Shown: positions 3,271-22,802 of the stretch, one piece after another
Layout: every line of letters starts with the position of its first letter
How positions within the stretch are numbered: the stretch's first letter is position 1
Source of the DNA: Methanolobus sp.
GTDB lineage: Archaea; Halobacteriota; Methanosarcinia; Methanosarcinales; Methanosarcinaceae
Direction of reading: 5' to 3'
Assembly: GCF_016278365.1 (NCBI RefSeq)
Contig: NZ_JADQBZ010000008.1
Location: forward strand, 248,001-312,000
Length of the DNA: 64,000 nucleotides
Notes under the pieces: model-generated
Database searches by the model: none
What the model saw: the letters and a program-made list of their open reading frames with translations, nothing else
What the model was told of the DNA's origin: nothing
Program-made: the position numbers and the translations under genes

Positions 3271-3338
3271 TATATAGTATAATATAGGTACTTTGAATCC
3301 CTGCAATATCAACTTCTGAATGAACGGGAGTTATTACT

Positions 3339-5507: not shown

Positions 5508-5508
5508 T

Positions 5509-6246: not shown

Positions 6247-6250
6247 TCAG

Positions 6251-6289: not shown

Positions 6290-6306
6290 CATTTCATTCC
6301 AGTTAT

Positions 6307-6473
6307 ATTCATGCTTTTGATATAATCAATAGCCTTGTTTTTAGCCCTGCCGGGATTTTCCGAGGTGTCATGGATTCAGAATATGCACACAGCAAAATCT
6401 ATAATTCAGACCGGGAACAGACGATTGATAATAATCATGCTGTTGGTTAATTACCATGAGTTATTATATATAC
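6307..6473 (+). promoter_or_regulatory. promoter of the corrinoid-protein gene, shared 166-bp type
   Basis: The block starts with ATTCATG (6307-6313), four bases, then TGATATAATCA (6318-6328). It contains CCTGCCGGG, AGAATATGC and the palindrome TGATAATAATCA (6425-6436). It ends with AATTACCATGAG and a TTATTATATATA box (6461-6472). It aligns gap-free with 21841-21675 and, less closely, with 1065-900, both read on the minus strand. The start codon is at 6640, so the expected leader is about 140 bases. Confidence 0.8.
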
Positions 6474-6639
6474 GTATACCCGAATACCGTAATTGTCGAT
6501 AAGTGATAAGTAATTGTCATCTTGTTGGCCTAAGCAAAATATGATTGTCAGATCATGGTCAAAAGCGGAAAAGGTGGAAAACTCAACATGCTCCGTGTTA
6601 CTGACCGGCATTAGCAATAAAACATTTGGAGGCGTTTCT

Positions 6640-7305: not shown

Positions 7306-7378
7306 GTAGACAAACTGGAATTTATGTATGTAACTCATTACTGCATAAATTTCTATTTTCTTACATATGGGTCAAAGG

Positions 7379-7433
7379 CGAGAGTAACATCTGCTAATGC
7401 TTATCTGCAGTAAGAAAGATGCTTTACTCTCCC
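7379..7433 (+). other. long stem-loop between corrinoid-protein and MT2 genes
   Basis: GAGAGTAACATC (near 7379) pairs with GATGCTTTACTCTC (near 7420-7433), leaving a 2-base bulge. A smaller hairpin (CTTA...TAAG) can form inside. There is no long T-run directly after it except TCCC then A-rich DNA. A processing or attenuation site that uncouples expression of the two genes is plausible. The remaining 273-bp spacer shows nothing else. Confidence 0.45.
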
Positions 7434-7578
7434 AAAAAAGTATTTTGCAGAAATGGATGGAATTGCTGCAGGCGCTGTCACATTCCTGCGAGATACACTT
7501 AACAAATCTATACCACTCATAGCTTGCTTTGCAGCAGGCAATACTAATATTATGCAATTATCACAGGAGTTCAGTTCA

Positions 7579-8598
7579 ATGGTAACATACACCCCTAAAG
7601 AGAGATTGGCACGTGCTCTGACAGGAAAACCTGTTGACAGGATGCCTGCTGTCTCATTCACACAGACAGGCACGGTCGAACAGATGGAAGCAGCTGGCGC
7701 ATTCTGGCCTGAAGCAAACGATAATGCAGAAACCATGGCAAAGCTTGCAGAAGCAGGCCACACTGTCGTGGGATTTGAAGCTGTGCGTGTCCCGTTCGAC
7801 ATCAGTGCAGAAGCTGAGTTCTTCGGCTGTGACATCAAGGCAGGCACAAAAGAACAGCAGCCATCTGTAAGCAGCCACTGTGTAAAAGATATGTCTGATG
7901 TCCAGAGACTGAAGAACTTTGACATAACTCAGGGCAGAGTAGCTACTATCTGCAAAGCGATAAAGATCCTTGCAGACAAGTATGGCAAGGAACTCCCTAT
8001 CATGGCAAGCATGCTTGGTCCATTCTCCCTTGCACAGCACATGAACGGCGATGACTGGTTCATGGCAATAATGACAGATGAGGAATTCGCAACAGCACTG
8101 ATGGATCTTGCAACAGAGTTCAACATTGCATACGCAAAGAAAATGGCTGAGAACGGTGCCGACACCATGGTCATCATCGACCCAACAGCAAGTGCAATGC
8201 TCATTGGTGACGAATATTACGAGAAATACGTAGTACCTGCGCACAGGAAAATCGTCGATGCAATGCATGAGATAAACGTACCGGTAGTGATCCACATCTG
8301 CGGTGACACAACAATGAGCCTGGAGCTTATGGAGTCTTCCGGTGTGGACGCCATCAGTGTTGACCAGAGCGTGGATATTGCAACCGCAAAGAGCAAGGTA
8401 AACAAGGCAATGATCATTGGAAACCTTGACCCGGTAGCAGTTCTCTGGAAAGGCACCCCGGATACAGTCAGGGAAGTTTCACAGAAAGCTATCGATGCAG
8501 GTGTCGACCTCCTTGCTCCTGGTTGTGGAATCGTAAGCAAGACGCCTAGCGTCAACCTTCAGGCAATGGTCGAATCCGCAAAGAACCGTAAATATTAA
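7579..8598 (+). CDS. methylcobamide:coenzyme M methyltransferase (MtbA/MtsA family MT2)
   Basis: 339 residues, the family's normal length. It moves the methyl group from a methylated corrinoid protein to coenzyme M. The N-terminus [20 protein letters not shown] and the motifs [19 protein letters not shown] and IIDPTASA are characteristic of MtbA/MtsA/MtaA (UroD fold). Zinc ligands are His239, Cys241 (VIHICGD) and Cys316 (APGCGIVS). The ATG at 7579 is preceded by AGGAG; the frame is open upstream to 7453, but that extension is not family-like. Together with the corrinoid protein it forms an MtsBA-like pair, although assignment to methylthiol or methylamine metabolism cannot be made from sequence. 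A strong terminator follows at 8607. Confidence 0.92.
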
Positions 8599-8606
8599 GA
8601 TCAAAG

Positions 8607-8668
8607 ATAATGCTCCGGACCCTTCTTTCATGTTCTTGGTCACCAAACCGTCCGGAGACATTATTTTT
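8607..8668 (+). terminator. terminator after the MT2 gene
   Basis: ATAATGCTCCGGAC (8607-8620) pairs with GTCCGGAGACATTAT (8650-8664) over 14 pairs with one bulged base, followed by five T residues. It starts 9 bases after the MT2 stop codon, so it ends the corrinoid/MT2 transcription unit. Confidence 0.75.
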
Positions 8669-8732
8669 GTAGTCTGGGGGAGCCAGGGCTTGCAATCAAA
8701 GATGCATTCGGGTCTTCACCAGACTATCTACC

Positions 8733-8779
8733 TCCATCCATCCATCCATCCATCCCTGGCCAGTGAAATAACACTGGCC
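8733..8779. repeat. (TCCA)5 tetranucleotide repeat and adjacent 8-bp hairpin
   Basis: Five perfect TCCA units run from 8733 to 8752. Just after them GGCCAGTG (8758-8765) and CACTGGCC (8772-8779) form a hairpin with a six-base loop. Both lie in the non-coding gap before the membrane-protein gene at 8877. The rest of the gap is AT-rich and may hold that gene's promoter (ATATATCATATGC near 8840). Confidence 0.6.
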
Positions 8780-8876
8780 CATTTCCCATAACAGCAGACG
8801 GCCTTTCCAATATATCAAATGAAAGGTTTTACCCCAAATATATCATATGCAAATAAAACATAAAAGTGTGATCTGA

Positions 8877-9728
8877 ATGTTATCAAAATTGATTAGATAC
8901 CTTCCGTGGGAAAAAAATACAGTTGACCTAAATGTACCTTCTTTTCAATCATTAAACAGATCAATAGAAAAGAAAAGTCAAATCCTTTTTAACAATGTAT
9001 GGTACTTTGCCATATTCATGCTCACGGTCATACTTGGTATCCTTGTGTTCTACAGGCACACGCAGAACGAGGTCATACCAGCCATAATACTTTCGATCTT
9101 GTGGGTGCTTTTCTGGAATAACAGTATGCTTAAAGGCAGGATGCTCCTGGTGATAGCATCTGCCTTTGGATATGTGCACGAACTTCTGGGCGTCCAGCAT
9201 GGGTATTTCACATATCTTGGCGGAGCTATAGGCGGCGCTCCCATATGGCTGATTCCAGGCTATGGTGCTATATTCTGGTCTTCCTATAACCTGTGGAAGA
9301 TATTCCAGGAAAGATATTCGCAACAACAATGGTTCCACAGAGTGAACTATTTCATAGTCGCAAGTGTGGCTTTAATGGTTGTGGCAGATTACGCCATTTT
9401 CGATCTCTCCCTGCAACCGATGGCAATACTTTTGAAGTTCTCCCTTGCACTCATGCTATTCAGTAGCCTTGATGGTCTGAGACTTGCATATTTTACGGGC
9501 TTCTTCACTGTCCTTACCGAGTTCACAGGAGAGATGCTGGGAACATGGATGCATCCTGATTTTTCGCTCTTCTCCCTGATGGCAGGATACGTGTTCCTTC
9601 TCTGGATATGCATCACGCTAAGTGAGGTGATAAAAGGTAAGAAAAAATGGGGCAAGATAGAGCCGGTAGCTGCTGTTTCTATAACATCATTCTATATATT
9701 GCTGCTACTTGGGATAGTAGCTGTTTAA
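8877..9728 (+). CDS. multi-pass membrane protein of unknown function
   Basis: 283 residues with about eight hydrophobic segments, for example WYFAIFMLTVILGILVFY (42-59), VIPAIILSILWVLFW, FIVASVALMVVADYAIF, LFSLMAGYVFLLWICITL and the very C-terminus. Conserved-looking loop residues include HELLGVQHGYFTYLGG and PIWLIPGYGAIFW. I do not recognise the family. It opens a run of plus-strand genes (aldehyde dehydrogenase, short-chain dehydrogenase, DUF5714) with short gaps, so it may be the first gene of an operon. A transporter or membrane-enzyme role is open. Confidence 0.8.
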   Translation: MLSKLIRYLPWEKNTVDLNVPSFQSLNRSIEKKSQILFNNVWYFAIFMLTVILGILVFYRHTQNEVIPAIILSILWVLFWNNSMLKGRMLLVIASAFGYVHELLGVQHGYFTYLGGAIGGAPIWLIPGYGAIFWSSYNLWKIFQERYSQQQWFHRVNYFIVASVALMVVADYAIFDLSLQPMAILLKFSLALMLFSSLDGLRLAYFTGFFTVLTEFTGEMLGTWMHPDFSLFSLMAGYVFLLWICITLSEVIKGKKKWGKIEPVAAVSITSFYILLLLGIVAV

Positions 9729-9770
9729 ACACAGGGATATGTAAATAAGCACGCATGAAGATGAAATGTC

Positions 9771-11180
9771 ATGTATGAGGAAATCAGACGCGTATTCAAT
9801 TTGCAGCAGGCAAAGTGGCCACAACTGGCCCGCCTGGATACCTCTGAGAGGATAGAGCGGTTGGTGCGTATTGACAACTATCTCCGTGATGAAAAGCACC
9901 TTTCTGAACTCTGCCAGGCCATGCATAAGGACTTCCGCAAGCCGGAAGTGGAGGTAATTGCTACAGAAGTTGGTGTTGTGCAGGCTCAGATATCCCATGT
10001 GAAAAAGCATCTCCGCCGCTGGATGAAGCCACGGAGGGTACCCACTCCCCTGCCACTTATCGGAACCCGCTCTCATATCCGGTACGAACCAAGAGGCTTG
10101 GTGCTAATTATATCTCCCTGGAATTTTCCCCTTAACCTGTCACTGGTACCGCTGGTCTACGCTATAGCTGCCGGTAATGCGGTCATGCTCAAACCCAGCG
10201 AAATATCGGCTCACACTTCATCATTCATAAAGCGCATGATGGATGAGCTTTTTGAAGAGAGTGAAGTTGCAGTCTTTGAAGGCGACGCATCAATTGCCAG
10301 TTCATTGCTTGACCAGCCATTCAATCATATCTTTTTCACAGGCAGTCCCAAAGTTGGCAAGATAATCATGACCAAGGCTGCCAGGCATCTCTGCAGCGTT
10401 ACCCTGGAGCTTGGAGGAAAATCACCAGCCATTATAGATGAAACGGCAGACATCAGCCGGATAGCCCGGCGTGCTGCCTGGGCCAAGTCTGTCAACAACG
10501 GACAGACATGCATCACTCCGGATTACATATTTCTCCATGAATCAATAAGAGAGCCCTTTATCCGGGAATTCAGAACTGCACTGCAGCAATTATATGACCC
10601 GGACGGCAGGGGAATAAAACAATCCCCTGACTACTGTCGTATTGTCAGTGATGCGCACTTCATGAGGCTGAAGTCCCTTTATGAAGATGCGCTGGACAAA
10701 GGTGCAGGTGTTCTGGCTGGTGGTGAGTTCGATGAGTCCGACCGCTTCATTTCCCCTACCTTGCTTGACGGGATCACTGAGGATATGGACATTATGCAGG
10801 AAGAAATATTCGGTCCCCTGCTTCCGGTGCTGACATACAGCGACAGGACAGAAGTAAGGAATATAATAAACCGTCTCCCAAGACCACTTACTCTGTATAT
10901 AGCCAGCCGGAACGAGAGCAACATCGAGTACTTCATGGAAAGCGTATCTGCTGGGGGGACTGTAATCAACGATTACATGTTGGGTTACAGCAATCCTTCC
11001 CTGCCCTTCGGAGGGATAAACAGCAGCGGAATTGGCAGGTCATTGGGTTTTCACTGCTTTACAGGCTTCTCCAACGAACGCAGCGTAATACACCGCAGGT
11101 GGGGATCATTGAGCATGATACACCCGCCATATAATGATCGTGTCAGAAAGCTTATCAAAACACTGTACAGGTGGATGTGA
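9771..11180 (+). CDS. NAD(P)-dependent aldehyde dehydrogenase
   Basis: 469 residues covering one full aldehyde dehydrogenase domain of the fatty-aldehyde (ALDH3) type. Visible are SPWNFPLNLSLVPL, the NAD-binding GNAVMLKPSE and FTGSPKVGK, the glutamate in TLELGGKSPA, the catalytic Cys in NNGQTCITPD and EEIFGPLLPV. It oxidises an aldehyde to its acid. The C-terminus ends in KTLYRWM, short of a membrane helix. It is 31 bp upstream of the short-chain dehydrogenase gene, so the pair may interconvert an alcohol, aldehyde and acid. The link to the opposing nine-gene operon is positional only. Confidence 0.9.
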   Translation: MYEEIRRVFNLQQAKWPQLARLDTSERIERLVRIDNYLRDEKHLSELCQAMHKDFRKPEVEVIATEVGVVQAQISHVKKHLRRWMKPRRVPTPLPLIGTRSHIRYEPRGLVLIISPWNFPLNLSLVPLVYAIAAGNAVMLKPSEISAHTSSFIKRMMDELFEESEVAVFEGDASIASSLLDQPFNHIFFTGSPKVGKIIMTKAARHLCSVTLELGGKSPAIIDETADISRIARRAAWAKSVNNGQTCITPDYIFLHESIREPFIREFRTALQQLYDPDGRGIKQSPDYCRIVSDAHFMRLKSLYEDALDKGAGVLAGGEFDESDRFISPTLLDGITEDMDIMQEEIFGPLLPVLTYSDRTEVRNIINRLPRPLTLYIASRNESNIEYFMESVSAGGTVINDYMLGYSNPSLPFGGINSSGIGRSLGFHCFTGFSNERSVIHRRWGSLSMIHPPYNDRVRKLIKTLYRWM

Positions 11181-11211
11181 ATATGCCTGGGCATAAAGAC
11201 GAAGGGAAACT

Positions 11212-12021
11212 ATGAAAGATGACAGGAAGACAGTGCTTATAACCGGCGGTTCCGGTGGGATAGGACTGGAGCTTGGCAAGCTTTTCGCAGCAGATGGCTA
11301 CCGTTTGGTCCTTGTAGCGATGCCCGGTGAAGATCTTAAGCATGCGGGAAATATACTGCAGTCCATCAGTCCGTTCACCAATATCTTCCTGCTGGAAAAG
11401 GACCTGTCCCGGCCAGGAGCGGCAACAGAGGTATATGAGTTCACCCATGCCCATGACCTCACTGTAGACGTGCTGGTCAACTGCGCCGGTTTTGGCACTT
11501 ACGGTCATGTCAATGAGATAGATATTGAAAGGGAGCTGGCCATGCTGCAACTGCATATCGGGACACTTTATCATCTTACAAGGCTCTACCTTCGGAAAAT
11601 GGTAGAAAGGGATGATGGTCAGGTCATTAATATGTCCTCAATATCGGCCTTCCAGCCAAATCCGACTTTTGCAACTTATGGAGCCAGCAAGAGCTTCATA
11701 CTCAACTTCAGCCGGGCCCTTAACTACGAATTAAGGGAACAGGGATCCGGAGTCAGGGTATTAGCTGTTTGTCCTACTGCTGTTAAAGGCACTGGTTTCC
11801 AGACAGCTGCAAGGATGGAGTGCTCCAGGGCATTCAGTTCCTGGATGGCTACAACACCCGCTATCGTGGCCCGCGACACGTACCGGGCTATGCAGCGTGG
11901 TAAGGATGTGGTGATACCGGGAAGGGGATTTGGCTTCGGACAGGCTCTGGTAAGCCTTCTCCCGGCAAGCTGGCAGATGAGGATATCCCGCTCCCAGCTG
12001 CGGGAAATAGAATCACTATAA
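11212..12021 (+). CDS. short-chain dehydrogenase/reductase
   Basis: 269 residues, classical SDR. The cofactor motif TGGSGGIG is at residues 12-19, NCAG near 92, then the catalytic serine in NMSSISAF and the YGASK tyrosine-lysine pair. The C-terminal part (GFGFGQALVSLLPASWQMRI) resembles the DltE/acyl-substrate SDR subgroup. It is an NAD(P)-dependent oxidoreductase of an alcohol/ketone. A start ATG at 11212 is preceded by GGGAAAC. It lies between the aldehyde dehydrogenase and DUF5714 genes with short gaps, so a shared transcript is likely. Confidence 0.9.
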   Translation: MKDDRKTVLITGGSGGIGLELGKLFAADGYRLVLVAMPGEDLKHAGNILQSISPFTNIFLLEKDLSRPGAATEVYEFTHAHDLTVDVLVNCAGFGTYGHVNEIDIERELAMLQLHIGTLYHLTRLYLRKMVERDDGQVINMSSISAFQPNPTFATYGASKSFILNFSRALNYELREQGSGVRVLAVCPTAVKGTGFQTAARMECSRAFSSWMATTPAIVARDTYRAMQRGKDVVIPGRGFGFGQALVSLLPASWQMRISRSQLREIESL

Positions 12022-12067
12022 GGACAAAACTTAGGTTTACAGTTAGAGGTTAAGCAGGTGATATAAG

Positions 12068-12805
12068 ATGATAAACATTGATACGTTGTGCAATGAGAAA
12101 AACAACTGTATGCTATGCGGGAACAGGATAGTTCACTCCTGCCAGGCAACTACTGCAAAATGTCACTACTGCGGTGTTGAAGAAGAAGCTTATATCCAAT
12201 GTAAGGACGGACATTATATCTGCAATGCCTGTCATTCGCAGGACGCACTCAAAGTCATTGAGAACATATGTCTGAGCACCGATATGCAGAACCCTGTAAC
12301 ACTGGCCGAGAAGATCATGAAGCATCCCAGTGTGCATATGCATGGACCGGAGCATCATGCACTTGTGCCCGCTGTCCTTATAGCAGCATACCAGAATTAC
12401 ACAGGGAAGAAGAAAGAAGCAGATATTTTAGAGGCCATCAAAAGAGGAAGCAAAGTTCCCGGCGGCTACTGCGGTATCTATGGAGCATGCGGTGCAGGAA
12501 TTGGAGTTGGGATCGCTGTTTGTATACTGGCGGAAGCCACTCCGTATACACCTTCTGAGCGCTCTCATGCAAACTGGGCTACATCAGGGACCCTGAGGTG
12601 CATTGCAGATGCAGGAGGAGCCAGGTGCTGCAAAAAAGCAACCCGTATCTCTCTGAGAAAAGGAGTGGCATATCTGTCAGATATGTTTGGCCTGCTGTGG
12701 TATGAGAATCTGGACTTGTCTGCGAAATGTAATTACACAAAGTACAATAAAGAATGCGACGAGAACTGTGAATATAAGGACAGATCTGGGATTGATAACA
12801 ATTAA
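12068..12805 (+). CDS. DUF5714-type cysteine-rich protein
   Basis: 245 residues. The N-terminal 70 residues carry zinc/Fe-S-like pairs (CMLCGN, CHYCG, CKDGHYICNACH). The C-terminal domain has GGYCGIYGACGAGIGVGIAV, reminiscent of C-GCAxxG-C-C proteins, and RCIADAGGARCCKKAT. From memory this matches DUF5714, a family found beside TrsS/TrsM-type radical-SAM clusters, and here it lies 16 bp from the end of such a cluster on the other strand. Function is unknown; a cluster-bearing electron carrier or methyl/thiol handling protein is a guess. AGGTGAT precedes the ATG. Confidence 0.8.
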   Translation: MINIDTLCNEKNNCMLCGNRIVHSCQATTAKCHYCGVEEEAYIQCKDGHYICNACHSQDALKVIENICLSTDMQNPVTLAEKIMKHPSVHMHGPEHHALVPAVLIAAYQNYTGKKKEADILEAIKRGSKVPGGYCGIYGACGAGIGVGIAVCILAEATPYTPSERSHANWATSGTLRCIADAGGARCCKKATRISLRKGVAYLSDMFGLLWYENLDLSAKCNYTKYNKECDENCEYKDRSGIDNN

Positions 12806-12821
12806 AATTATCACTATCTAC

Positions 12822-13595
12822 TTAATCCATTAGTCTGCCAAATATATGGCCTTTTAGCATTGAGAATTCCTGGGTGCCTGTCAATGACAGTTGGCGGGGA
12901 CGCTCAAAAGGTACAGTTATCTCTTCAATGATCCTGCCTGGCCTTTTACTCATGATGCAGATGCGATCTGACATTAACAGAGCTTCTTCCACATCGTGTG
13001 TGATGAAAACAACTGTGTGCCTATAGTTTTCCCAGAGACCAAGCAGCAATTGCTGCATGCTGTAACGTGTCTGGGCATCCAATGCTGCGAATGGTTCATC
13101 CATAAGCAGGACCTTAGGCCTTAATACAAGTGCACGTGCCAGGGCAGCCCTTTGCTGCATGCCACCGGATAACTGGGAAGGATAATAGTCCCAAAAACCG
13201 TCAAGTCCTACAGCTCTTATATATTCAGAAGCTATCTCTTCTGCTTCGTTCCTGCCGTTCTTCCTTAGTTTCAGCCCGTAAAGGATATTGTCCTTAACGC
13301 TGAGCCATGGAAACAGTACAGGTGACTGGAACACTACTGCTCTTTCGGGAGAAGGTTCTCTTATGCGTTCGCCGCAACAGGCTGCATGACCGCTGTCCGC
13401 AGGCTCAAATCCTGCAAGGATATTAAGGAATGTGGATTTACCGCAGCCGCTTGGGCCTAGTATACTGACGAACTCACCTTCCCTGATCTCAAAACGGATA
13501 TCCTCCAGAACCTTTAAAGAGTCATGCTCGCCGGGGCGGGAAAAACTTTTGTTTATTCCTTCTGCTGACAGGTTCGTGCGTTGCATGACTTTCAT
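12822..13595 (-). CDS. ABC importer ATPase (SsuB/TauB/NrtD-like)
   Basis: 257 residues with Walker A GPSGCGKST, the signature LSGGMQQRAALARAL, Walker B VLLMDEPFAALD and the H-loop VFITHDVEEALL. It drives import by the permease at 13592, whose stop codon overlaps this start by four bases. Best match is the nitrate/sulfonate/taurine importer group. It is the last gene of the operon beginning at 21517. Substrate unknown; the operon context (radical SAM, ligase, methyltransferases) suggests a small organic precursor rather than nitrate. Confidence 0.93.
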   Translation of the reverse strand: MKVMQRTNLSAEGINKSFSRPGEHDSLKVLEDIRFEIREGEFVSILGPSGCGKSTFLNILAGFEPADSGHAACCGERIREPSPERAVVFQSPVLFPWLSVKDNILYGLKLRKNGRNEAEEIASEYIRAVGLDGFWDYYPSQLSGGMQQRAALARALVLRPKVLLMDEPFAALDAQTRYSMQQLLLGLWENYRHTVVFITHDVEEALLMSDRICIMSKRPGRIIEEITVPFERPRQLSLTGTQEFSMLKGHIFGRLMD

Positions 13596-14386
13596 TCTTT
13601 GTTCTCCTCCCTTAGCAGGTCCAGCCTTTTAAAAGAACCGACGAGTATCATATCGCTGATGCGGCCAAACAATCCTATGAATATCATAGAGACCAGGATC
13701 ATCTCTGCGTGTCCCAGCATCCGGGCATCCATCATCACCGCACCCAGTCCATATGTCACACCTGTAAGCTCACCCAATACCAGATAGGCCCAGGAGATGC
13801 CCAAACCCAGCCTTAGTCCGGCCAGAGTGGAAGGCAGGGATGCTGGTATGATGACCGTAGTGAATATCGTCAGCTTATTGGCACCCAGCATCCTCCCTGC
13901 ACGGATGAGTAAAGGAGGTACTGAAGAGGCCCCCTGGGCTGCATTCACATATATCGGGAAAAAGGCTGCCAGTGAAATGAGAAACAGGGTTGTGTTCTCT
14001 CCCACGCCAAACCAGACCATGGCTATGGGCAACCACCCAATGCCGGGAATGATACGGATAAGATGTACAGTAGAATCAAGAGAACTCTTTGCAAGGGATA
14101 TACGCCCTGTCAGAAAACCCAGGGGAAGTCCCACAGCAACGGCCAGACCAAAACCCATCGCCACTCTTTGAACGCTGGCAAGGGTATGTACTAAGAGTGT
14201 CCCTGCATAAGGTGTTAGATTCGCATGCCCGGTAGCAAAATCGACTGCCACGCGAACCAGGTTCGATGGCGAGGGAATAAGATATGCCGGCACTCCTCCC
14301 TCCAGAGTCACAAGATACCATGCGGTAAATATCAATGCTGGAAGAACGAATCCTATATAGTCCACTTTCCAGTTACTTACTGTCAT
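13592..14386 (-). CDS. ABC importer permease (SsuC/TauC-like)
   Basis: 264 residues, six membrane segments, with the inner-membrane permease signature around residues 150-200 (AAQGASSVPPLLIRAGRMLGA) that contacts the ATPase. The N-terminus (IGFVLPALIFTAWYLVTLEGG) and overall length fit the SsuC/TauC/NrtB family. Its first four bases overlap the stop of the binding-protein gene and its end overlaps the ATPase gene, so the three subunits are translationally coupled. Confidence 0.92.
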   Translation of the reverse strand: MTVSNWKVDYIGFVLPALIFTAWYLVTLEGGVPAYLIPSPSNLVRVAVDFATGHANLTPYAGTLLVHTLASVQRVAMGFGLAVAVGLPLGFLTGRISLAKSSLDSTVHLIRIIPGIGWLPIAMVWFGVGENTTLFLISLAAFFPIYVNAAQGASSVPPLLIRAGRMLGANKLTIFTTVIIPASLPSTLAGLRLGLGISWAYLVLGELTGVTYGLGAVMMDARMLGHAEMILVSMIFIGLFGRISDMILVGSFKRLDLLREENKE

Positions 14387-15366
14387 GCGGTTTCACTGTT
14401 TTGAAGATCATTGCGTGCCTGTTCCACAAAGCTCCGATCAAAGAGGACATCCATATCCGGTACTTGAGTGATCATGCCAAGTTCCTTCATCCTTAAGGCA
14501 AGCTGCTCTGCCTGGATTACATAAGATTCATCCATATACCATGCAAGCTCCATGTTATCCTGTGCAATCCTCAGCACCTCAGGGTCAGTTCCAAACTCTG
14601 AGGACATAATGATCCATTCATCCTGATTTGCATTGAGGTGTTCCGTAGCTCTTGCATGGGCTGTCACCAATGCCTGTATCCTTTCCCTGTCATTCTCTAT
14701 CATGCTCCTGGTTGTGAGCATGCCTGCATTGATTGTTCCCACGCTTTCTCCATAGTAAGGATAAACAAGCACACGCCCGTATCCATTCACAATCGCCAGG
14801 GACGGATAAGGTTCACCACTGCAGAAAGCATCCACAGTACCCTGTGACAAGGCCTGTCCCATATCAAAGAAGTCGATACGTTGAAGGGTCACGTCTTTTT
14901 CGGGGTCTAGTCCTGCCTGCTCCAGTGTTTCAAGCAAAAGTACATGATGCATGGTTCCCGGCACATAGGCTATTTTTTTGCCCCTCAGGTCTGCAGGCGT
15001 GTTGATGTCGGAATCATTCCTCACTACAATTGCAGAGCACTTGTTAGCAAGCCCGCTCACAACAACCACCGGCTCATCCTTAGAAGCAGCCGTGATTGCA
15101 AGTGCTATTGTCGTACCTGTCATATCCAGGCTTCCCGCAAGCAGTGCAGCTTTCTGGTCACCGGGATTTGTGAAGGGGAGCACTTCTACCGAATACCTGT
15201 CGTCAATGTAGTCCTGATAGAGGAAAGGCTGTATGGTCTGTGCGGTCTTCCATGTTCCTACTTTTATTTTTTCTGTACCTTCAGATGCATGGCCTGTGCA
15301 CCCGGATGCCAGAAGGGATAAAAAAAGGATGAACAGCATGCATAACATGGAGACGCGTTTTTGCAT
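14383..15366 (-). CDS. ABC importer substrate-binding lipoprotein (SsuA/NMT1-like)
   Basis: 327 residues. A signal peptide with lipobox LLASGC (cysteine at 23) anchors it outside the membrane. The body resembles NrtA/SsuA/ThiY-type binding proteins: KVGTWKTAQTIQPFLYQD, LAGSLDMTGTTIALA, DLRGKKIAYVPGT and VDAFCSGEPYPSLA. Such proteins bind sulfonates, nitrate, pyrimidine precursors or other small anions. The start follows the stop of the BioB-like gene with no spacing. The unusually polar pocket cannot be modelled here, so the ligand remains open. Confidence 0.9.
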   Translation of the reverse strand: MQKRVSMLCMLFILFLSLLASGCTGHASEGTEKIKVGTWKTAQTIQPFLYQDYIDDRYSVEVLPFTNPGDQKAALLAGSLDMTGTTIALAITAASKDEPVVVVSGLANKCSAIVVRNDSDINTPADLRGKKIAYVPGTMHHVLLLETLEQAGLDPEKDVTLQRIDFFDMGQALSQGTVDAFCSGEPYPSLAIVNGYGRVLVYPYYGESVGTINAGMLTTRSMIENDRERIQALVTAHARATEHLNANQDEWIIMSSEFGTDPEVLRIAQDNMELAWYMDESYVIQAEQLALRMKELGMITQVPDMDVLFDRSFVEQARNDLQNSETA

Positions 15367-16362
15367 TCAGTTCTCCCTCCCGGAGTAAAATCCATATCCT
15401 GCATTCGTGAAATAATCCCTGGCAGTTTCCAGGCCGAAACCATGCCATTCAGTCTTACAGTCAGCACCTTCCCTTGGGATGGCTCCGGTCTCGACAACAA
15501 CCACATTAGCACCCCATTCCACAGCAAGCCTTGAGGGAGGATGTGCGCATATGTCCGGTGCATGATAGCCGGCAGCCAGACGTGTCACAGCTACTATCTG
15601 TGCATGTCTTCGCTCCGAAATTTGAGGATAATCACTTAGAGGCGTGCCGGGAAGAGGTACCCTTGCCATAACACCACACAGTCTGGCATTATACTCCATT
15701 GCTGTCAGGAAGACGTCGGCAATTTCGGAGTTCGTGTGTTCTGTGCCAACAGGCTCGACAAGGTAGGCAAGGTCCAGCGGAGAACTGTTTACAGAAGCAA
15801 GGGTTGCGATCCTGTCTTCTGGTTTGAATCTCGTATTTATGCCTTCGCGCAGCCGGATAGTATGATATACCATCTGCGCCCCCGCGCCGGACAGGATTTC
15901 TGCTTCTGTCTCGTTGAACTCACCCGTATTGACAACGATCTGGTACTCTCCCGGAATTGAAGCCCTGATATCCCTGACAACCTGGGTCAGTCTTTCAATC
16001 CCGTAAAACTGCGTAGTCCGTAAAGTTATCCATCTGGCTCCATGGGAAACGAATTGGCGGACCAGTTCTATAATCTCCCGGGAGTCCCGTTCGCTTTCAT
16101 CCTTCACAATTCCCCATTTACGGCCAAACGCACAGAAATCACAGTTCATAGCACATTTCTTATAATCAACACCAATTGAAGCCCAGACACTCCCGCTGTT
16201 CCCTGTGACCACGGCAGCAACTTCCCTTGCCACCTTTCCTAGAATTTCCGCATCCTTTGAATCCGGGTCTATCTCCAGTAGAGCGATTATATCATCCCGG
16301 TTCAACCTTTCACCTTTCAATGCTTTTTCTTTTGATCTCTGGATAAGGTCTAAATCAGACAA
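15367..16362 (-). CDS. BioB-like radical SAM enzyme
   Basis: 331 residues. The radical-SAM cluster motif is C70-x3-C74-x2-C77 (CAMNCDFC), then the TIM-barrel pattern seen in BioB/HydE/HmdB/PylB (ARWITLRTTQFYG, VVNTGEFNETEAEILSGAGA, LVEPVGTEHTNSEI, GVMARVPLPGTPL). Extra BioB [2Fe-2S] ligands are not obvious, so sulfur insertion like biotin synthase is doubtful. The start is TTG at 16362 with GGTGAG upstream. It is sandwiched between TrsM-like methyltransferase and the importer, suggesting that it works on an imported or derived small molecule. PylB is unlikely because no pyl genes are near. Confidence 0.88.
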   Translation of the reverse strand: MSDLDLIQRSKEKALKGERLNRDDIIALLEIDPDSKDAEILGKVAREVAAVVTGNSGSVWASIGVDYKKCAMNCDFCAFGRKWGIVKDESERDSREIIELVRQFVSHGARWITLRTTQFYGIERLTQVVRDIRASIPGEYQIVVNTGEFNETEAEILSGAGAQMVYHTIRLREGINTRFKPEDRIATLASVNSSPLDLAYLVEPVGTEHTNSEIADVFLTAMEYNARLCGVMARVPLPGTPLSDYPQISERRHAQIVAVTRLAAGYHAPDICAHPPSRLAVEWGANVVVVETGAIPREGADCKTEWHGFGLETARDYFTNAGYGFYSGREN

Positions 16363-16413
16363 TCTTACTCACCACTTTTGTTTTAACGTATTTGCTTAAG
16401 TCAACAGAACTTT

Positions 16414-17154
16414 TCAGCTTTTTTTTCTCAGAGTAACACGATACAGTTTCTTAGGCAATTCTCCTTCTTTGAATTCCGTAATATCCAATACATCATGGCC
16501 TTCCGACAGAAGGTCCACCTTTTCTCTGCTCAGGAAATGCACGATGAATCCTCCCTGAATCTCCCACATATCCTCACCTCTGTGGATACCGGTCCCGTAC
16601 TGGGGATCATTTGTATGTCTTGTGGTGAATATGTTCAGTCCTCCGGGCTTAAGGACCCTCCTGACCTCTGCCGAAAGTGAGCGTAATTCAGAAATTGTCA
16701 AGGGCATACAGTAAAGCATATGAGAATAGCATGCATCGAATGTGCCATCCTCAAAAGGCAGCCTGTTCCTGACATCATGCTGCATGGGAGTTACAGAACC
16801 TGATACTGAGGACTCACTGGCTTTCTCCTTCAAGGATTTGATTCCTTTTTCGCAATAGTCAAGGGCAGTTACATCAAAACCATTCATTGCAAAAAACAGG
16901 GTATCTCTTCCCTGTCCAAAACCAAGCTCAAGGACTTTTGTCTTGCCTTCTTCCTTCAACAGCCGAGCTGCCCACCGGGCCGGACTGCTTGGGTCCTCGC
17001 CAAACATGGAAGCATTGATTGAAAATACGCACTCCCAATGTTGCTGTTGTCTGCTCAGGATGTCTTTATCTATATCCGTTCCTCTCTGGTTCACTGCATC
17101 ACTTCCACAAAAAAGCATCAGAACGGTAGAGCCGTCCCATGAAAAAATGTTCAT
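16414..17154 (-). CDS. SAM-dependent methyltransferase (TrsM-like)
   Basis: 246 residues. The class I SAM-binding motif is VLELGFGQGRDTLFFA (about 74-89), followed by VTALDYCEKG, PMQHDVRNRLPFEDGTFDACYSHMLY and RRVLKPGGLNIFTTRH. From memory this matches the DVU_1556/TrsM family that neighbours TrsS radical SAM proteins. The first 25 residues are poorly supported and no strong ribosome site precedes ATG 17154, so the true start may be ATG at residue 13. The methylated substrate is unknown. Confidence 0.85.
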   Translation of the reverse strand: MNIFSWDGSTVLMLFCGSDAVNQRGTDIDKDILSRQQQHWECVFSINASMFGEDPSSPARWAARLLKEEGKTKVLELGFGQGRDTLFFAMNGFDVTALDYCEKGIKSLKEKASESSVSGSVTPMQHDVRNRLPFEDGTFDACYSHMLYCMPLTISELRSLSAEVRRVLKPGGLNIFTTRHTNDPQYGTGIHRGEDMWEIQGGFIVHFLSREKVDLLSEGHDVLDITEFKEGELPKKLYRVTLRKKS

Positions 17155-17218
17155 AACATTCGTTTCTGAAAGAAAGATTAAGAAAGGAACCGGAGTCCCT
17201 CCCTTGAGATATGAGCTC

Positions 17219-18355
17219 TCAGAAGTTTATTCTCTTTATATCACTTATCCGCTGGTCAAAGCAGGCGCCACAATTGCACGGCTCGTCAATGAGAGCTGTG
17301 ATATCCCTTGTCCTGTAGCGGATAAGGGGCATACACCTTCTCCGGAGGGTTGTGACAACAAGCTCTCCTTCCTCACCGGGAGGTAGCTGTTTCCCGGTTT
17401 TTGGGTCAATGACCTCAACCAGGAAATCCGGGTTGTTGAGATGGAAACCATCCTGCTCAGAGCATTCGATTGCATTGGCCAGCCCAAGTTCTGTCATGCC
17501 CCACTGCCTTAGGGTCTTGCAGCCCCATACGCTCTCTATATCCTCCCTCATGGAAGGTGTCAGGGGTTCGGATGAGCAGATTATGGTCTTTATTCCCATT
17601 TCTCCGGGCTTTATAAGCTCACGGACGGCCTTTGAGAGGTCATGCAGGAAGGATGATGTCCCAATGATAAGAGTCGTTCCTGACTCCCTCATGGTCCTTA
17701 ACTGATCGTCCGCATCCAGGGAATCATTAATTACCGACTTATAACCGGCAAGGGCACAGGCCTTACTGAGTACAAGACCGGGGTCCCAGGTGGCTGTTAT
17801 GGTGGGATACATTATCTGCAATGTATCTTCTTTAGAGTCCATTCCTGCCATTTTCAGGCCCGAGATGACCGAGTCGACAATTTCCAGCAGTTCGTCCTGG
17901 GTGTACGCCATTCTTTTGAGCATGTTGGTGGTGCCGGAACTCGTAAACTCCCTGGCTATCTCCTTTCTTGATACGCAAAGGAAATGATACGGATGCTCAG
18001 CCAACAATTGCTGCTCGGTCAGTGGCAGTTTCTCCAGGTCCTCATATCCGGTAATCTGAGAAGGGTCGATACCTGCTTTTTCGTAAATCTCTTTATAATA
18101 GGGACTATTCTCCAGTACATACGCCATCAATTGCCTGAACTTTATGAGCTTGTACTCATTGATGTAATTCCTGTCAAGTTCCCTCTGGCCAAAGAACTCT
18201 TTCAACTCCCGATTGTTCTTCACGTCATTCCTTATCTTGGCCAGACCCCATTGTTCAAGAGGATTCCCGGTCCCGCCTTCTATTTTCCGGGACTCCAGTC
18301 TCCTTTTTGCTATATTCATCCGAACAGCAGTATTGATCTTTGCAGAAAGACTCAT
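17219..18355 (-). CDS. truncated adenylate-forming (PaaK/DVU_1553-like) ligase
   Basis: 378 residues. It resembles phenylacetate-CoA-ligase-type enzymes: MAYVLENSPYYKEIYEKAGI, the ATP loop TSSGTTNML, IICSSEPLTP, LRQWGMTELGLA and LIRYRTRDITALI. It stops at CNCGACFDQRISDIKRINF, just where family members enter the C-terminal lid domain with its catalytic lysine. That domain of roughly 50-100 residues is missing, and no matching sequence continues downstream. It may only adenylate a carboxylate, or rely on another protein for transfer. Operon position is between TrsM-like and TrsS-like genes. Confidence 0.87.
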   Translation of the reverse strand: MSLSAKINTAVRMNIAKRRLESRKIEGGTGNPLEQWGLAKIRNDVKNNRELKEFFGQRELDRNYINEYKLIKFRQLMAYVLENSPYYKEIYEKAGIDPSQITGYEDLEKLPLTEQQLLAEHPYHFLCVSRKEIAREFTSSGTTNMLKRMAYTQDELLEIVDSVISGLKMAGMDSKEDTLQIMYPTITATWDPGLVLSKACALAGYKSVINDSLDADDQLRTMRESGTTLIIGTSSFLHDLSKAVRELIKPGEMGIKTIICSSEPLTPSMREDIESVWGCKTLRQWGMTELGLANAIECSEQDGFHLNNPDFLVEVIDPKTGKQLPPGEEGELVVTTLRRRCMPLIRYRTRDITALIDEPCNCGACFDQRISDIKRINF

Positions 18356-18394
18356 TTTACGCCTCCTGTTTTCCTCATAAAAGAAAAATAAAGA

Positions 18395-19837
18395 TTAAGT
18401 GGCATTCCTGTAAAGGAACTTGCCGTCACAATCGGTCATATTGTAGTTGCAGAAGGGAACAAACCTTCCATCACGTGTCACCACATGTATGCAGCAGTTC
18501 TCCACTCTTTCTTTCTCGTATGACCAGACGTCCTGGAATGCCATTGTTGAGATGGTTAAATAGCTGTTCCTGCTCATCTCGATAAAGTCCGCCCATCCTC
18601 CGCCCAGGCGGGAGTTCTTTGGAAGGATATCAGTGATAGGCTTTTCACAGCATGAGCCTTTCACGGTCAGCTGGCTTAGAGGCTTCTCGCAGCATGAGCT
18701 CTTAATAAGCAGATCACCGCATGAGGATTTCTGAGCATCCTTCTCAGAACCTCTCCACCTGCCCATGATAGACTTCTTTGTTTTGCTTGCCACATCAGAA
18801 GCGGATTTGAGTGCTCCCAGTGAGACATTGGTCAGTGGCAGGAAGCCATTGCTGTCGATGACTGTCAGGCAGGTTGCTCCGCAATGGGCATGAGGCATCA
18901 GTGAAGGTGTGAAATTCTCAACCTTCAGCTGGCCCCTGGTCTGCTTCTCGATCTCCCGGAGAAGTTCCAGAATGGTGATCCTTCCTTCACGACCTGAAGG
19001 TGCACGGCCGGAATAGAATACAGGCTGGAAGTGCACGCCTCTTACGGTCGGAACCCTGCTGCCTGCAAACTCTATGATCCTGCCGACTTCGTGCAGGTTA
19101 TAGTTCTTAGCCACAAGGGGCACAAGAACGACGCCGATGCCGGCCTTCTCGCATCTGTTGATGACCTCGGACTTTATGTCAAAGAGCTTCTTTCCGGTCC
19201 TTTTCATATAAATATCATCTGATACGCCATCAAATCCAAGATAGATAGCATCTATACCTGCTGAGGCGATCTTATCAAAATAATCCTGGTCGCTGGCGAT
19301 TCTGCGACCATTGGTATTCAATTCTATGTGGTTGATGCCTACTTCCTTTCCCATCCTTATTATCTCAGGCAGGTCGTCCCTCATAGTGGGTTCTCCTCCT
19401 GATATCTGTATGCAGGTTGGTTCGTTCTGGCATTTCTTCACGGTTTCGAACATGAACCTTATTGTTTCCATATCGGGATCAAGGCTCTTATCCATTGAAG
19501 AGCTGGCAAAACAATAAGCGCACCCCATGTCGCACCTGTCAGTTACTTCCACAACTGCCAGGCAGGTATCCTGTTTATGAGAGGGACAGAGGCCGCAGTC
19601 GAAGGGGCAGCCTTTTTCTACATCAGTTAAGGATGCCCTGGCACGTGACCTATTAACCTCGAAACATTCCTCCATTTGTCGGTAGTGACCTATATCTTCA
19701 GATATAAGGGTTGTAAAACTACCATGGTCAGGGCACTCCTTCTTTATGTAGACTTGTCCGTTCTCTGCATACTTGATGCCGCCTATTTTTCCAAGGCATT
19801 CCGGACAAAGGCTTTCTACTGTGCTTATCGGTTCCAT
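18395..19837 (-). CDS. TrsS-like radical SAM protein with Cys-rich insertion
   Basis: 480 residues. The N-terminal cysteines (CPECLGKI 11-14, CPDHG 35, CPFDCGLCPSHKQDTC 77-92) resemble those of MJ0619/Tes-type radical SAM proteins. The radical-SAM motif is C102-x3-C106-x2-C109 (CDMGCAYC), followed by QISGGEPTMRDDLPEI and LNTNGRRIA. Residues 370-402 hold an insertion with one SSCGD and two SCCEKP motifs. The C-terminus (CCIHVV, PFCNYNMTDCDG) adds more cysteines. I recall the family name TrsS from a conserved cluster with TrsM and a DVU_1557 redox protein, all of which are present here. Catalysis is unknown. Confidence 0.87.
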   Translation of the reverse strand: MEPISTVESLCPECLGKIGGIKYAENGQVYIKKECPDHGSFTTLISEDIGHYRQMEECFEVNRSRARASLTDVEKGCPFDCGLCPSHKQDTCLAVVEVTDRCDMGCAYCFASSSMDKSLDPDMETIRFMFETVKKCQNEPTCIQISGGEPTMRDDLPEIIRMGKEVGINHIELNTNGRRIASDQDYFDKIASAGIDAIYLGFDGVSDDIYMKRTGKKLFDIKSEVINRCEKAGIGVVLVPLVAKNYNLHEVGRIIEFAGSRVPTVRGVHFQPVFYSGRAPSGREGRITILELLREIEKQTRGQLKVENFTPSLMPHAHCGATCLTVIDSNGFLPLTNVSLGALKSASDVASKTKKSIMGRWRGSEKDAQKSSCGDLLIKSSCCEKPLSQLTVKGSCCEKPITDILPKNSRLGGGWADFIEMSRNSYLTISTMAFQDVWSYEKERVENCCIHVVTRDGRFVPFCNYNMTDCDGKFLYRNAT

Positions 19838-19898
19838 CTGTTCCCTCTCTGGTTGGTTGTGTAATCTACCTGAGAATCCTTCTGATCCTCAGATAATT

Positions 19899-20360
19899 TT
19901 AAGCTCTCTTTTCTTCAAGAATCGCTTCTGCTGTTTTGAGTGTTGACTTTGCCATGCCTGCTGATACATACATTTCGCCGCATTTAGCACAGACAAGACC
20001 GGGGCCGGGCCTGGTGACTCCCAGGTAGCTCATGTCAACGTTTCTCTCCAGTGCAACCTCTCCACACTTTGCACATATCCAGTCGCTTGCGTCATCATAT
20101 TCCACAGGCTTGATCTCTCCTCCGGTAATACCGAGGATGTTCATTTTGTGGGTGTAGACATCAAGCAGTTCAGATGCAGAGTAGACAGCGTAGATGGTTA
20201 GATTCTCAGACGCACCCTTTGCAATACAGGTGTTCCCGTCCTTTGACTTGAGTTTTTGCCCGCTGGATTCCGAATTCTTGATAATATCCAGGATCTCCTC
20301 TTTCCTCACGCCGTTGTCCTTCAATAAATTGTCCGCTTGTTCAGTTATCTTTATATCCAT
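19899..20360 (-). CDS. DVU_1557-like zinc/redox protein
   Basis: 153 residues. The C-terminal half has two CxxCG pairs, WICAKCGEVAL and LVCAKCGEMYV, and ends KSTLKTAEAILEEKR, the pattern I recall for the DVU_1557 redox family. The N-terminal half (about 1-85) resembles no domain I know and has a single Cys. It lies directly after the UroD-fold gene (44-bp gap) and before TrsS-like. A rubredoxin-like electron carrier or zinc protein for the neighbouring radical SAM enzymes is an inference. Confidence 0.75.
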   Translation of the reverse strand: MDIKITEQADNLLKDNGVRKEEILDIIKNSESSGQKLKSKDGNTCIAKGASENLTIYAVYSASELLDVYTHKMNILGITGGEIKPVEYDDASDWICAKCGEVALERNVDMSYLGVTRPGPGLVCAKCGEMYVSAGMAKSTLKTAEAILEEKRA

Positions 20361-20404
20361 AAGAAACCCTCATTATTTTATACTGTTATTATTCATCCCC
20401 TGTT

Positions 20405-21517
20405 TCAGAACTTCTCATACTTTCCGAAATCCTTGGCAGCTCTTACCAGTGCGTGGACGTTAACAGGTGGTGCGTTGGTCGGACATTCGCATGCAGTTCC
20501 CAGGATGAATCCTCTCGGACTGTCCTTACCGGCGATTACCTGTTCCTTGGCCTGTGCATAGACCTGTGCAGGTGTACCGCGGTCAATCAGCTTTGTATCA
20601 ACAGTTCCGAAGCAGGTGCACCGGTCTCCGAAGTTCTCTACAAGCTTTGATGTTGGGAATATGTTCTGTCCGTCGTATCCTATCTGGACAATGGTGAAGG
20701 GGCTCATTGGTGCATCCTTCCACAGATCGAAATCATCGGTGTGGTTACCACAGAGATGGTAATAGACACCAGGACCTGCGCCTGCATTGAGGACTTTCCT
20801 GACAGCTCTGGATACCGGCTGGTAACTGAACCTCTTGATCTGCTCCCTGTCCATGAGGTCACCACTTGCTATTACTGAGCCGGTGATCATGACGTTGGCT
20901 CCATATCTTTCAGCAGTGGCCCTGCATGCATTGACCATGTGGTCTCCGGCCTTTACACAAAGCTTGTCAACAAGTTCAGGCTCTGTGATCATCCACATGA
21001 AGACATCTTCGATGGAAGCCCAGTTAGTAGCCACTTCCATGGTACCACCCAGCTGGGTGATCGGGGCGAACATCTGTGGGTATTCGTTCTTTACTGTGTC
21101 GAGCGCTTTGTAGTGTGTTGTGAGTGTCGGGCCTTTCACAAGGTCCTCTGTGCTTAGCACTTCAAAGTTATCGACATCTTCAGCGGTCTTTATCGGACGG
21201 TTTGTGATGCCTGGAGGAGCGTTGGTCTGGATCTTTATTTCAGCTCCATAGTCGGCTCCCCAGTAATCCGCATACAGGTAGTGACCAACCGGAGTGACAT
21301 CATAGAGTTCACAGGCGCCACATACCATTCTTACTGCTTCATCAGGATTTGAATAGAAATATCCTGCGTTCTTTCTGTACAGAGTAGCTGCGTGTGACAG
21401 AATGATGGGGTCCACGATAACTCTATCCGATGGCTTGTCCACCCACGGTGTCGTCCATAAGCTTCCTGCCTTTCCTAGCCAATCTGAATCTATTGGGATA
21501 TAATCTTGTGCTGGCAT
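20405..21517 (-). CDS. UroD-fold cobalamin methyltransferase
   Basis: 370 residues, uroporphyrinogen-decarboxylase/MtaA superfamily. The thiol-activating zinc triad is present: H254 and C256 in YYHLCGN, then C343/C345 in [22 protein letters not shown] and GYDGQNIFP are other landmarks. It is only distantly similar to the MT2 at 7579. It therefore could be the substrate-specific MT1 or a second MT2. It is first in the nine-gene operon and has the shared promoter (21675-21841). ATG 21517 is preceded by GGTGATAAAG. True heme uroporphyrinogen decarboxylase is ruled out by the zinc motif and context. Confidence 0.85.
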
Positions 21518-21674
21518 ACTTTATCACCAATCTTTTGTTGTTACGGGTTAGGGAATGGTGAAAATAGTAAACTTTTTCCATCCATAACCACCAATTTGAA
21601 ATCAAATCTTTTTACAGTCAATCATGCAAATTATGAATTTGTCATTATTGACAATAATTGGTATCTGGACGTAG

Positions 21675-21841
21675 ATATATATAATAACTCATGGTAATTA
21701 GTCAATGCCATTATTATTATCAATTGCATGTTCAAGGTTTGAATTGTAGTTTTTGCCGAGAGCATATTCTTAAACTAAAGCAGTCAGGAAAACCCCGGCA
21801 GGAAAAAAATTAACACCTTCGATAATATCGAGACCATGAAT
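21675..21841 (-). promoter_or_regulatory. promoter of the nine-gene operon, shared 166-bp type
   Basis: On the minus strand it starts with ATTCATG (21841-21835), four bases, CGATATTATCG (21830-21820), then CCTGCCGGGG, AGAATATGC, ATTGATAATAAT and AATTACCATGAG, and ends with TTATTATATATA (21687-21676). It is of the same length as 6307-6473, and long runs of bases are identical. Leader length to 21517 would be about 130 bases. The adjoining 21842-22019 is the 3' region of the Msr gene; T-rich tracts near 21885-21915 on the minus strand probably end that transcript. Confidence 0.8.
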
Positions 21842-22019
21842 GATACAGATACAGTATATATTTATTACAAAACAAAATGCACATAAAAGAAAAACAGAGG
21901 AACAGAAAAATAATGTCTTTGCAGTACCCTTCGAATACCTGTACGAATTTGCACACACTTTTAGGATGAATCCCTTGCAAAGTTCTTATTGATATCTTAA
22001 AAATGGAATCCCGAATATC

Positions 22020-22802
22020 TCATTTGACTTTTTCAGCTATTTGTTTATATTGCTCAAAAAGGTCCATTCCCCAATGGCGTGCAGGATCTTCAAAACTGAT
22101 GACCTTTTTGTGATCGAATATTCCCTGCTTATTAAAGAATGCGATAAGCATAAGGTCATCTGTTATTGACAGAGCACCTAAACGAACAGTATTATCGTCG
22201 CATATGAACATATTGGAACTGGGAGAATCCATCATTGCTTCATACTGCTCTGTGTACTCTTCTTTTAACCGGGTATATACGGATCTTGTCAATATCAGGT
22301 CAAATTCCACTTCTTTTTTCGCAAGTTCGGCATAATTCATGGGGCAACTCGGACAGAAATAAGAATAGAATGTCGATGCCTTCGTGGATTGCTTCAGACT
22401 AAGACATAACTGCTTAGGAGGCTCAAAAAGGTGGTTGAGATCAGGCTGATACACCATTATTTGCCCAAGATCGCCAATCCTGTCAAGCAAGGGATCAGGT
22501 ATAGCACTCATATCCCTGCTTTCCCAGTACTCTTTATTCTCCTCAAGGACATTCAGCGCTTCCATCAGGGGCTTTATCTTTCGTAGTATGATCTTCCCGA
22601 TGTAGGTCAGACTGTATTCATCAGATGTCTGTTCAATGAGACCCTGCTCAAGAAGGATTTTCATCTGGGCCATTATTGCACTGGTCGTTCCTGTAAGGGA
22701 ATCCTTTATCTCATCTATAGTGGCTGGCCGCTCCATTAACATAAGGAGAGTGTTTTTCCTTTTTTCAGAAAGAAACACTGTACTTATCAGTTCTGTTTTC
22801 AT
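22020..22802 (-). CDS. Msr-type winged-helix regulator (DUF1724), copy 2
   Basis: 260 residues, the same length as the copy at 1118-1900 and colinear with it; the first 60 residues are nearly identical. The winged helix (residues 1-75) and DUF1724 domain are intact, and the CPTCP pair is CPSCP here. It lies directly upstream of the nine-gene operon on the same strand. The upstream 560 bp carry an AT-rich box (GATTTAAATAAC near 23030) and the palindrome TGATTTATCA (22948-22957), which could be an autoregulatory site. ATG 22802 has AGAGGC upstream. Confidence 0.87.
   Translation of the reverse strand: MKTELISTVFLSEKRKNTLLMLMERPATIDEIKDSLTGTTSAIMAQMKILLEQGLIEQTSDEYSLTYIGKIILRKIKPLMEALNVLEENKEYWESRDMSAIPDPLLDRIGDLGQIMVYQPDLNHLFEPPKQLCLSLKQSTKASTFYSYFCPSCPMNYAELAKKEVEFDLILTRSVYTRLKEEYTEQYEAMMDSPSSNMFICDDNTVRLGALSITDDLMLIAFFNKQGIFDHKKVISFEDPARHWGMDLFEQYKQIAEKVK

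Follow-up and report, generated by a model that had tools for sequence, protein, structure and literature searches.

A 64,000-nucleotide stretch of DNA from Methanolobus sp., a salt-tolerant methane-making archaeon (contig NZ_JADQBZ010000008.1, positions 248,001 to 312,000; hereafter the window), contains a cassette of about 18 genes and 24 kb that probably encodes an inducible, corrinoid-dependent methyl-transfer pathway carrying the methyl groups of a methylated compound into methanogenesis. The nine minus-strand genes that a first-pass annotation had described as an operon, headed by a UroD-fold methyltransferase and including the radical S-adenosylmethionine (SAM) enzyme TrsS, are one arm of this larger, jointly controlled cassette. 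All nine open reading frames, as well as the convergent frame for a DUF5714 protein, lie at the coordinates claimed, with spacings of -4 to 64 bp between the operon genes and 16 bp to the DUF5714 gene on the opposite strand. The nine-gene unit thus exists, with a conserved order of its first four genes, but the region claimed for it takes in no more than about half of the full cassette. The cassette can be recognized by its gene content and order, by the co-occurrence of its genes, by a shared promoter and by conserved Zn and Fe-S ligand residues.

The operon proteins were scanned against NCBIfam and Pfam models with curated cut-offs, and the features of the cassette (positions in the window, strand) are as follows.

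20405–21517, minus: UroD-fold methyltransferase, proposed substrate:corrinoid methyltransferase (MT1) (Pfam URO-D 123.6 bits; Zn ligands)
19899–20360, minus: DVU_1557-type redox protein (DUF7479), extended by an additional N-terminal domain (NCBIfam and Pfam scans)
18395–19837, minus: TrsS, radical SAM enzyme resembling Tes, four metal sites (NF045646 485.9 bits, cut-off 490; alignment to PDB 7tol)
17219–18355, minus: N-domain only of an adenylate-forming ligase, DVU_1553 type (family scan; C-terminal subdomain missing)
16414–17154, minus: SAM-dependent methyltransferase, Cys relative of the selenoprotein MduS, absent from some relatives (251.6 bits, cut-off 380)
15367–16362, minus: BioB/HydE/PylB-like radical SAM protein, optional module together with the importer (family scans)
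14383–15366, minus: importer binding lipoprotein, SsuA/NMT1 family (family scans)
13592–14386, minus: importer permease (family scans)
12822–13595, minus: importer ATPase (family scans)
12068–12805, plus: DUF5714 protein (MbdU-like), final gene of the convergent operon (Pfam 201 bits, cut-off 26; linked in relatives)
11212–12021, plus: SDR oxidoreductase (family scans)
9771–11180, plus: aldehyde dehydrogenase (family scans)
8877–9728, plus: c6mem, membrane protein without a family, strict cassette marker
7453–8598, plus: MtbA, methylcobamide:coenzyme M methyltransferase (MT2), model match from residue 43 (NF041608 632.9 bits, over the cut-off of 600)
6640–7305, plus: corrinoid protein of the MtbC/MttC/MtgC type, ATG start (both B12-binding domains above cut-off; TIGR02370 200 bits, cut-off 215)
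3339–5507, plus: old-yellow-enzyme/dienoyl-CoA-reductase-type flavoprotein (OYE) (family scans)
1118–1900, minus: FilR1 (Msr-type) regulator 1 (Pfam 112 bits)
22020–22802, minus: FilR1 (Msr-type) regulator 2 (Pfam 109 bits)
1–411, minus: 5' part of ramA, encoding the corrinoid reductive activase and continuing past the left window edge (TIGR04270 742.6 bits, over the cut-off of 500)
21639–21845, minus: promoter region of UroD, duplicated at the corrinoid operon (pairwise alignment)
6304–6509, plus: promoter region of the corrinoid operon, duplicated at UroD (pairwise alignment)
21819–21831, minus: palindrome TCGATAATATCGA, about 300 bp 5' of UroD
6317–6329, plus: palindrome TTGATATAATCAA, one mismatch, about 310 bp 5' of the corrinoid gene
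1043–1055, minus: palindrome-like site, one mismatch, 5' of ramA

Beyond the left window edge the same contig continues with ramA and a sensor kinase gene.

A promoter shared by the two arms

The regions of about 205 bp located 5' of the UroD and corrinoid genes are duplicates of each other, with 156 of 202 aligned bases identical (77%) and an alignment score of 135 against a maximum of 35 after shuffling; no such duplication was found 5' of the OYE gene in the window. Both contain a palindrome with the consensus TTGATA-N-TATCAA (at most one mismatch allowed) that lies 299–325 bp 5' of UroD in 21 of 22 genomes and is equally frequent 5' of the corrinoid gene (21/22), mostly 290–330 bp from the ATG. 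It also precedes OYE in 12 of 23 genes and none of 14 other tested gene types, the background being 4.9% of random windows. A variant placed 5' of ramA in 14 of 17 loci was found with a wider search window and is hence weaker. We infer that the palindrome is bound by the FilR1 proteins. The link to methyl transfer drawn in the first-pass annotation is borne out by the promoter shared with the corrinoid/MtbA operon and by the accompanying RamA and FilR1 regulators.

Conservation of the cassette

The order UroD-redox-TrsS-ligase is constant in 18 other Methanosarcinaceae genomes, so that the co-occurrence anticipated for these genes holds beyond chance. The second operon is likewise constant in order, with FilR1 at its head followed by OYE, corrinoid protein, MtbA, c6mem, aldehyde dehydrogenase, SDR and DUF5714, except that a few genomes outside Methanolobus showed no MtbA in their cassette. 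Among 60 relatives, the 19 genomes that have the Trs operon all encode c6mem and the other 41 do not, and within the genus 17 of 27 genomes have both; DUF5714 is less strictly tied to the Trs genomes. Cultured species that carry the cassette include Methanolobus vulcani (L061), M. bombayensis (L063) and M. profundi (L060). The ramA gene is linked in 17 loci and was found in each of the 16 relatives' loci that reach that far. In the phylum sample (247 genomes) the UroD protein is present in all and only the Trs genomes, the exception being a distant methanogen (G077) in which a UroD homologue directly precedes a corrinoid protein gene.

The region after the ligase gene is variable. It holds either the BioB-like gene and the ABC importer (eight loci with linkage, the window among them, and one without) or a gene for a MIP channel (nine); the two were never seen together in the stretches available and one genome has neither. 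The importer genes proposed earlier are present, but with the BioB-like gene they form an optional module found in 9 of 19 genomes. BioB-like proteins are encoded in five of the 247 genomes, all five of which carry UroD, even where the genes are unlinked, and one relative (L162) retains just a 27-residue remnant. A BioB-like gene with a stop or frameshift adjoins a DUF5714-like stretch in a Methanomethylophilaceae locus (L168, 9305–10947). Two genes inserted in the cassette of the window, for MsrA (2719–3267, plus) and a formylglycine-enzyme-like protein (5509–6246, minus), were not seen in the conserved gene order.

The UroD protein as candidate first methyltransferase

Residues H254, C256 and C343 of the UroD protein align to the Zn ligands of the MtaA structure 4ay7, and the pattern His-x-Cys...Cys of MtaA and MtbA is kept in 25 of 25 correctly framed homologues (two misframed rows, L169 and L170, were left out). 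The cassette contains no long MttB/MtmB/MtbB-type open reading frame and no unexplained MT1-sized gene, also when the search was repeated with TAG read through. Since no other substrate:corrinoid methyltransferase gene was found there, the Zn-site UroD protein is likely the MT1 of the pathway. This does not fix the substrate class, because the UroD superfamily includes O-, S- and halogen-demethylases (PMC10418091). An S-methyl compound may be offered as a first guess, by analogy with MtsA and the mtpCAP-msrH locus, which handle methylated sulfur (PMC7374477).

In Methanomassiliicoccales a second UroD copy is divergent from, or lies beside, CobB/CobQ-type (cobyric-acid-synthase-type) genes (L192, 3471–7319; L193, 7925–11772; L194, 475–4302).

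TrsS and its companions

TrsS aligns over its full length to the Tes structure 7tol (331 bits). The metal ligands described for Tes (PMC9433317), namely those of the rubredoxin site and of the N-terminal, radical SAM and C-terminal clusters, including the labile Met (M432), are kept in 77 TrsS sequences, with one N-terminally truncated row as the exception. The Tes marker Tyr459 is found in none of the 77, while Tyr is present in 9 of 11 Tes rows, the remaining two (L202, L207) being misframed and discounted. TrsS therefore appears to be a radical enzyme different from Tes, and a separate Tes-like protein is encoded at another place in the genome. A quick tree, with SH-aLRT as its only support measure, places TrsS apart from Tes and archaeal TrsS apart from bacterial TrsS. 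In Tes a substrate carbon bonds to a sulfur of one Fe-S cluster, and by analogy TrsS could act on unactivated carbons. A literature search on the function of DVU_155x or TrsS returned no functional account, TrsS being listed, among the papers searched, only in a review table (PMC13188914).

The Trs family names given in the first pass largely agree with the hidden Markov model scans, but mostly at scores below the curated cut-offs. The TrsS copy of a relative (G008) reaches 493 bits. The ligase scores 270 bits with the DVU_1553 model (NF045666, cut-off 300) and the redox protein 40.4 bits with the DVU_1557 model (NF045645, cut-off 60), although the latter passes that of Pfam DUF7479 (65.7 bits). 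The extra N-terminal domain of this redox protein also occurs at the end of a bacterial dicluster oxidoreductase, and in a Chloroflexi locus (L093) the same two parts are apparently encoded as separate genes; there and in L094, two tandem TrsS genes and the apparently split redox protein are followed by an MFS transporter. The operon has no TrsM: its SAM methyltransferase best matches MduS and gives only 31.4 bits with the DVU_1556/TrsM model (NF045667, cut-off 155). The BioB-like protein reaches the cut-off neither of PylB (49 bits of 348) nor of BioB (42 of 225). As a counterpart of bacterial DVU_1555 the DUF5714 protein was rejected by profile comparison, and a fold search with its structure model gave no convincing match.

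The ligase had been called truncated, and indeed the entire C-terminal subdomain is missing. The ligases of Methanosarcinaceae, Nitrososphaeria and Hadarchaea have all lost this subdomain, and those of the latter two groups also have a degenerate ATP loop. Activation of a substrate by the ligase, a step of the pathway first proposed, is doubtful because of the missing domain.

Archaeal and bacterial Trs neighbourhoods

The TrsS loci are of two kinds. The archaeal kind consists of UroD-redox-TrsS with a ligase gene near, and the pairing of UroD with TrsS is common to Methanosarcinaceae, Methanomassiliicoccales, Nitrososphaeria and Hadarchaea. The bacterial kind comprises a Mo aldehyde oxidoreductase, a dicluster oxidoreductase, DVU_1557, DVU_1556, DVU_1555, TrsS, DVU_1553, XdhC and DVU_1551. 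The conserved neighbourhood evoked by the Trs names is real, and extends from sulfate reducers to acetogens, clostridia and Campylobacterota. The suggestion that this methanogen had joined a sulfate-reducer cassette to its own genes is not supported: UroD and TrsS are spread together over archaeal groups, the bacterial Trs operons hold the molybdenum enzyme in place of UroD, and the separate archaeal TrsS clade in the quick tree speaks against recent transfer from sulfate reducers. The Trs core with UroD would rather be an old archaeal arrangement, which needs no molybdenum hydroxylase. TrsS has an enzyme of aldehyde oxidation as a companion in bacteria and Methanosarcinaceae, and also at two of the three Nitrososphaeria loci, which may hint at an aldehyde in a common pathway. 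A plasmid search for bacterial TrsS returned distant radical SAM proteins only. In archaea other than Methanosarcinaceae, UroD-TrsS repeatedly has as neighbours the genes of a small Cys-rich protein (k16) and of a DUF169 protein (k31) (L071, L072, L073, L079, L080).

Proposed pathway and points against it

In the proposed pathway, FilR1 regulators would turn on the units having one promoter type, and the compound would be taken up through the ABC importer, a place occupied in other species by the MIP channel gene. The UroD protein would transfer the methyl group of the compound to the corrinoid protein, which RamA would maintain as Co(I), and MtbA would hand the methyl group to coenzyme M; this partnership and the direction of flow are what we infer from the gene set. 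TrsS might form or remodel a carbon skeleton through H abstraction at an unactivated carbon, with the DVU_1557-type protein perhaps as its electron donor, although the roles of TrsS and the ligase are guesses. The aldehyde dehydrogenase, the SDR and the flavoprotein would handle the non-methyl part. A more specific form of the proposal, held tentatively, is a radical-SAM-assisted methylotrophy in which TrsS would make or open a thioether or carbon skeleton, its Met-ligated third cluster trapping a carbon radical as in Tes, before the UroD protein moves the methyl group to the corrinoid. Such a route, if real, would represent a novel class of substrate use by methanogens, without a pyrrolysine methyltransferase and with a radical core common to a methanogen pathway and bacterial aldehyde oxidation. 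The cassette is in any case a concrete lead to a methylotrophic substrate not yet described, and offers a testable setting for TrsS.

Several observations weigh against a methyl-transfer role. The UroD protein shows no more than remote similarity to MtaA (22 bits); it might instead serve as a second MT2 or have some other target. The palindrome occurs genome-wide, each genome having 4 to 14 copies even where Trs is absent, which excludes it as a cassette-specific operator; it may for this reason be a general operator of methyltransferase genes. The bacterial TrsS/ligase/DVU_1557 core accompanies a molybdenum aldehyde oxidoreductase and no UroD of the cassette kind was found in six bacterial Trs genomes, so that the core as such does not depend on corrinoid methyl transfer. 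Methanomassiliicoccales, Nitrososphaeria and Hadarchaea keep UroD-redox-TrsS without a nearby corrinoid cassette, and no match to methyl-coenzyme M reductase (MCR) was obtained in two Hadarchaea genomes, which may be incomplete. Searches for MCR were positive in all five Methanomassiliicoccales genomes examined (G336–G340), one Nitrososphaeria genome out of three (G332) and G077; the Chloroflexi genome gave no match.

Alternative explanations

The cassette could serve biosynthesis instead of catabolism, with TrsS, the ligase, the redox protein and UroD making or modifying a lipid, an isoprenoid or a cofactor, as the sister enzyme Tes does. The full-length similarity and identical four metal sites of TrsS and Tes are consistent with this, as are a weak fold match of c6mem, the only one obtained, to the Insig homologue MvINS (E 0.02) and the proximity of the Methanomassiliicoccales genes to sequences resembling GGGPS and UbiA prenyltransferase. 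However, that neighbourhood also has RadA-like and CCA-transferase genes and may be due to chance, the promoter is common with corrinoid/MtbA, an importer or channel gene is attached, and the patchy occurrence within the genus indicates that the cassette is not essential. We regard a biosynthetic role as unlikely.

Still less probable is that two separate systems merely adjoin, a methylamine-type set (corrinoid protein, MtbA and RamA) and an unrelated Trs/UroD pathway. MtbA and RamA do serve methylamines generally (PMC6855144), and the arms lie up to about 20 kb apart in some genomes. Yet the duplicate promoter with its palindrome stands before both UroD and the corrinoid gene, the co-occurrence is exact (see above), and the cassette has no long frame for MtmB, MtbB or MttB.

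A role in metal or metalloid handling seems very improbable. Relatives of DUF5714 and MduS go by the names of metal-binding or methyltransferase selenoproteins, importers of the Sao type and MIP channels can be associated with metalloids, a review assigns Sao proteins to metal or metalloid resistance (PMC13188914), and a MIP gene replaces the importer in nine relatives. The MbdU, MduS and Sao matches of the cassette are, however, all under cut-off, no known metal-efflux or metal-reductase gene is present in it, and FilR1, MtbA and RamA indicate methylotrophy. Finally, maturation of a molybdenum hydroxylase, suggested by the aldehyde oxidoreductase and the XdhC- and NTP-transferase-type maturation genes of bacterial Trs operons, is refuted for Methanolobus, as the MoCoBD_1 domain is found in 0 of 36 relatives, its own genome included, and five control genomes were positive.

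Comparison with known systems

The methylotrophic systems of Methanosarcinales (MtxB-MtxC-MtxA with RamA and Msr/FilR1; mtpCAP-msrH) likewise link a corrinoid protein, MtbA, RamA, FilR1 and a transporter (PMC7374477, PMC6855144), and the cassette, too, is apparently co-regulated. A precedent is mtpCAP-msrH, which combines a corrinoid protein, a coenzyme M methyltransferase, a transporter and a regulator and is required for growth on methylmercaptopropionate (PMC7374477). The cassette differs in its MT1 candidate, a distant UroD-fold protein, in the Tes-like radical SAM enzyme, DVU_1557-type protein and ligase fragment added in the UroD operon, and in the attached oxidoreductase set. With the bacterial Trs/DVU_1551–1559 neighbourhood it shares TrsS, the DVU_1553-type ligase, the DVU_1557-type protein and a nearby aldehyde-oxidising enzyme, but it has UroD instead of the Mo hydroxylase, its ligase lacks the C-domain, and no XdhC, DVU_1551, DVU_1555 or DVU_1556 gene was seen. 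Tes (GDGT-MAS, MJ0619) has the same clusters and labile Met (PMC9433317), whereas TrsS, apart from lacking Tyr459 and forming a separate clade, has a variable Cys-rich insertion. Type I mlp clusters likewise encode several members of the UroD superfamily alongside a corrinoid protein and a reductive activase (PMC10418091); those members are MtaA-like (>25% identity), unlike the UroD of the cassette, and searching the text of that paper for radical SAM gave no result.

A second methyl-transfer island lies left of the window (L228, G000:C11:231000-249990, 2464–13025). It encodes a 633-residue fused corrinoid/UroD protein with the layout described for MtsD/MtsF, another RamA (711 bits), MtaA (423 bits) and a third protein of the UroD type, together with one chaperonin-like and one hydantoinase-like subunit and a further FilR1-like regulator.

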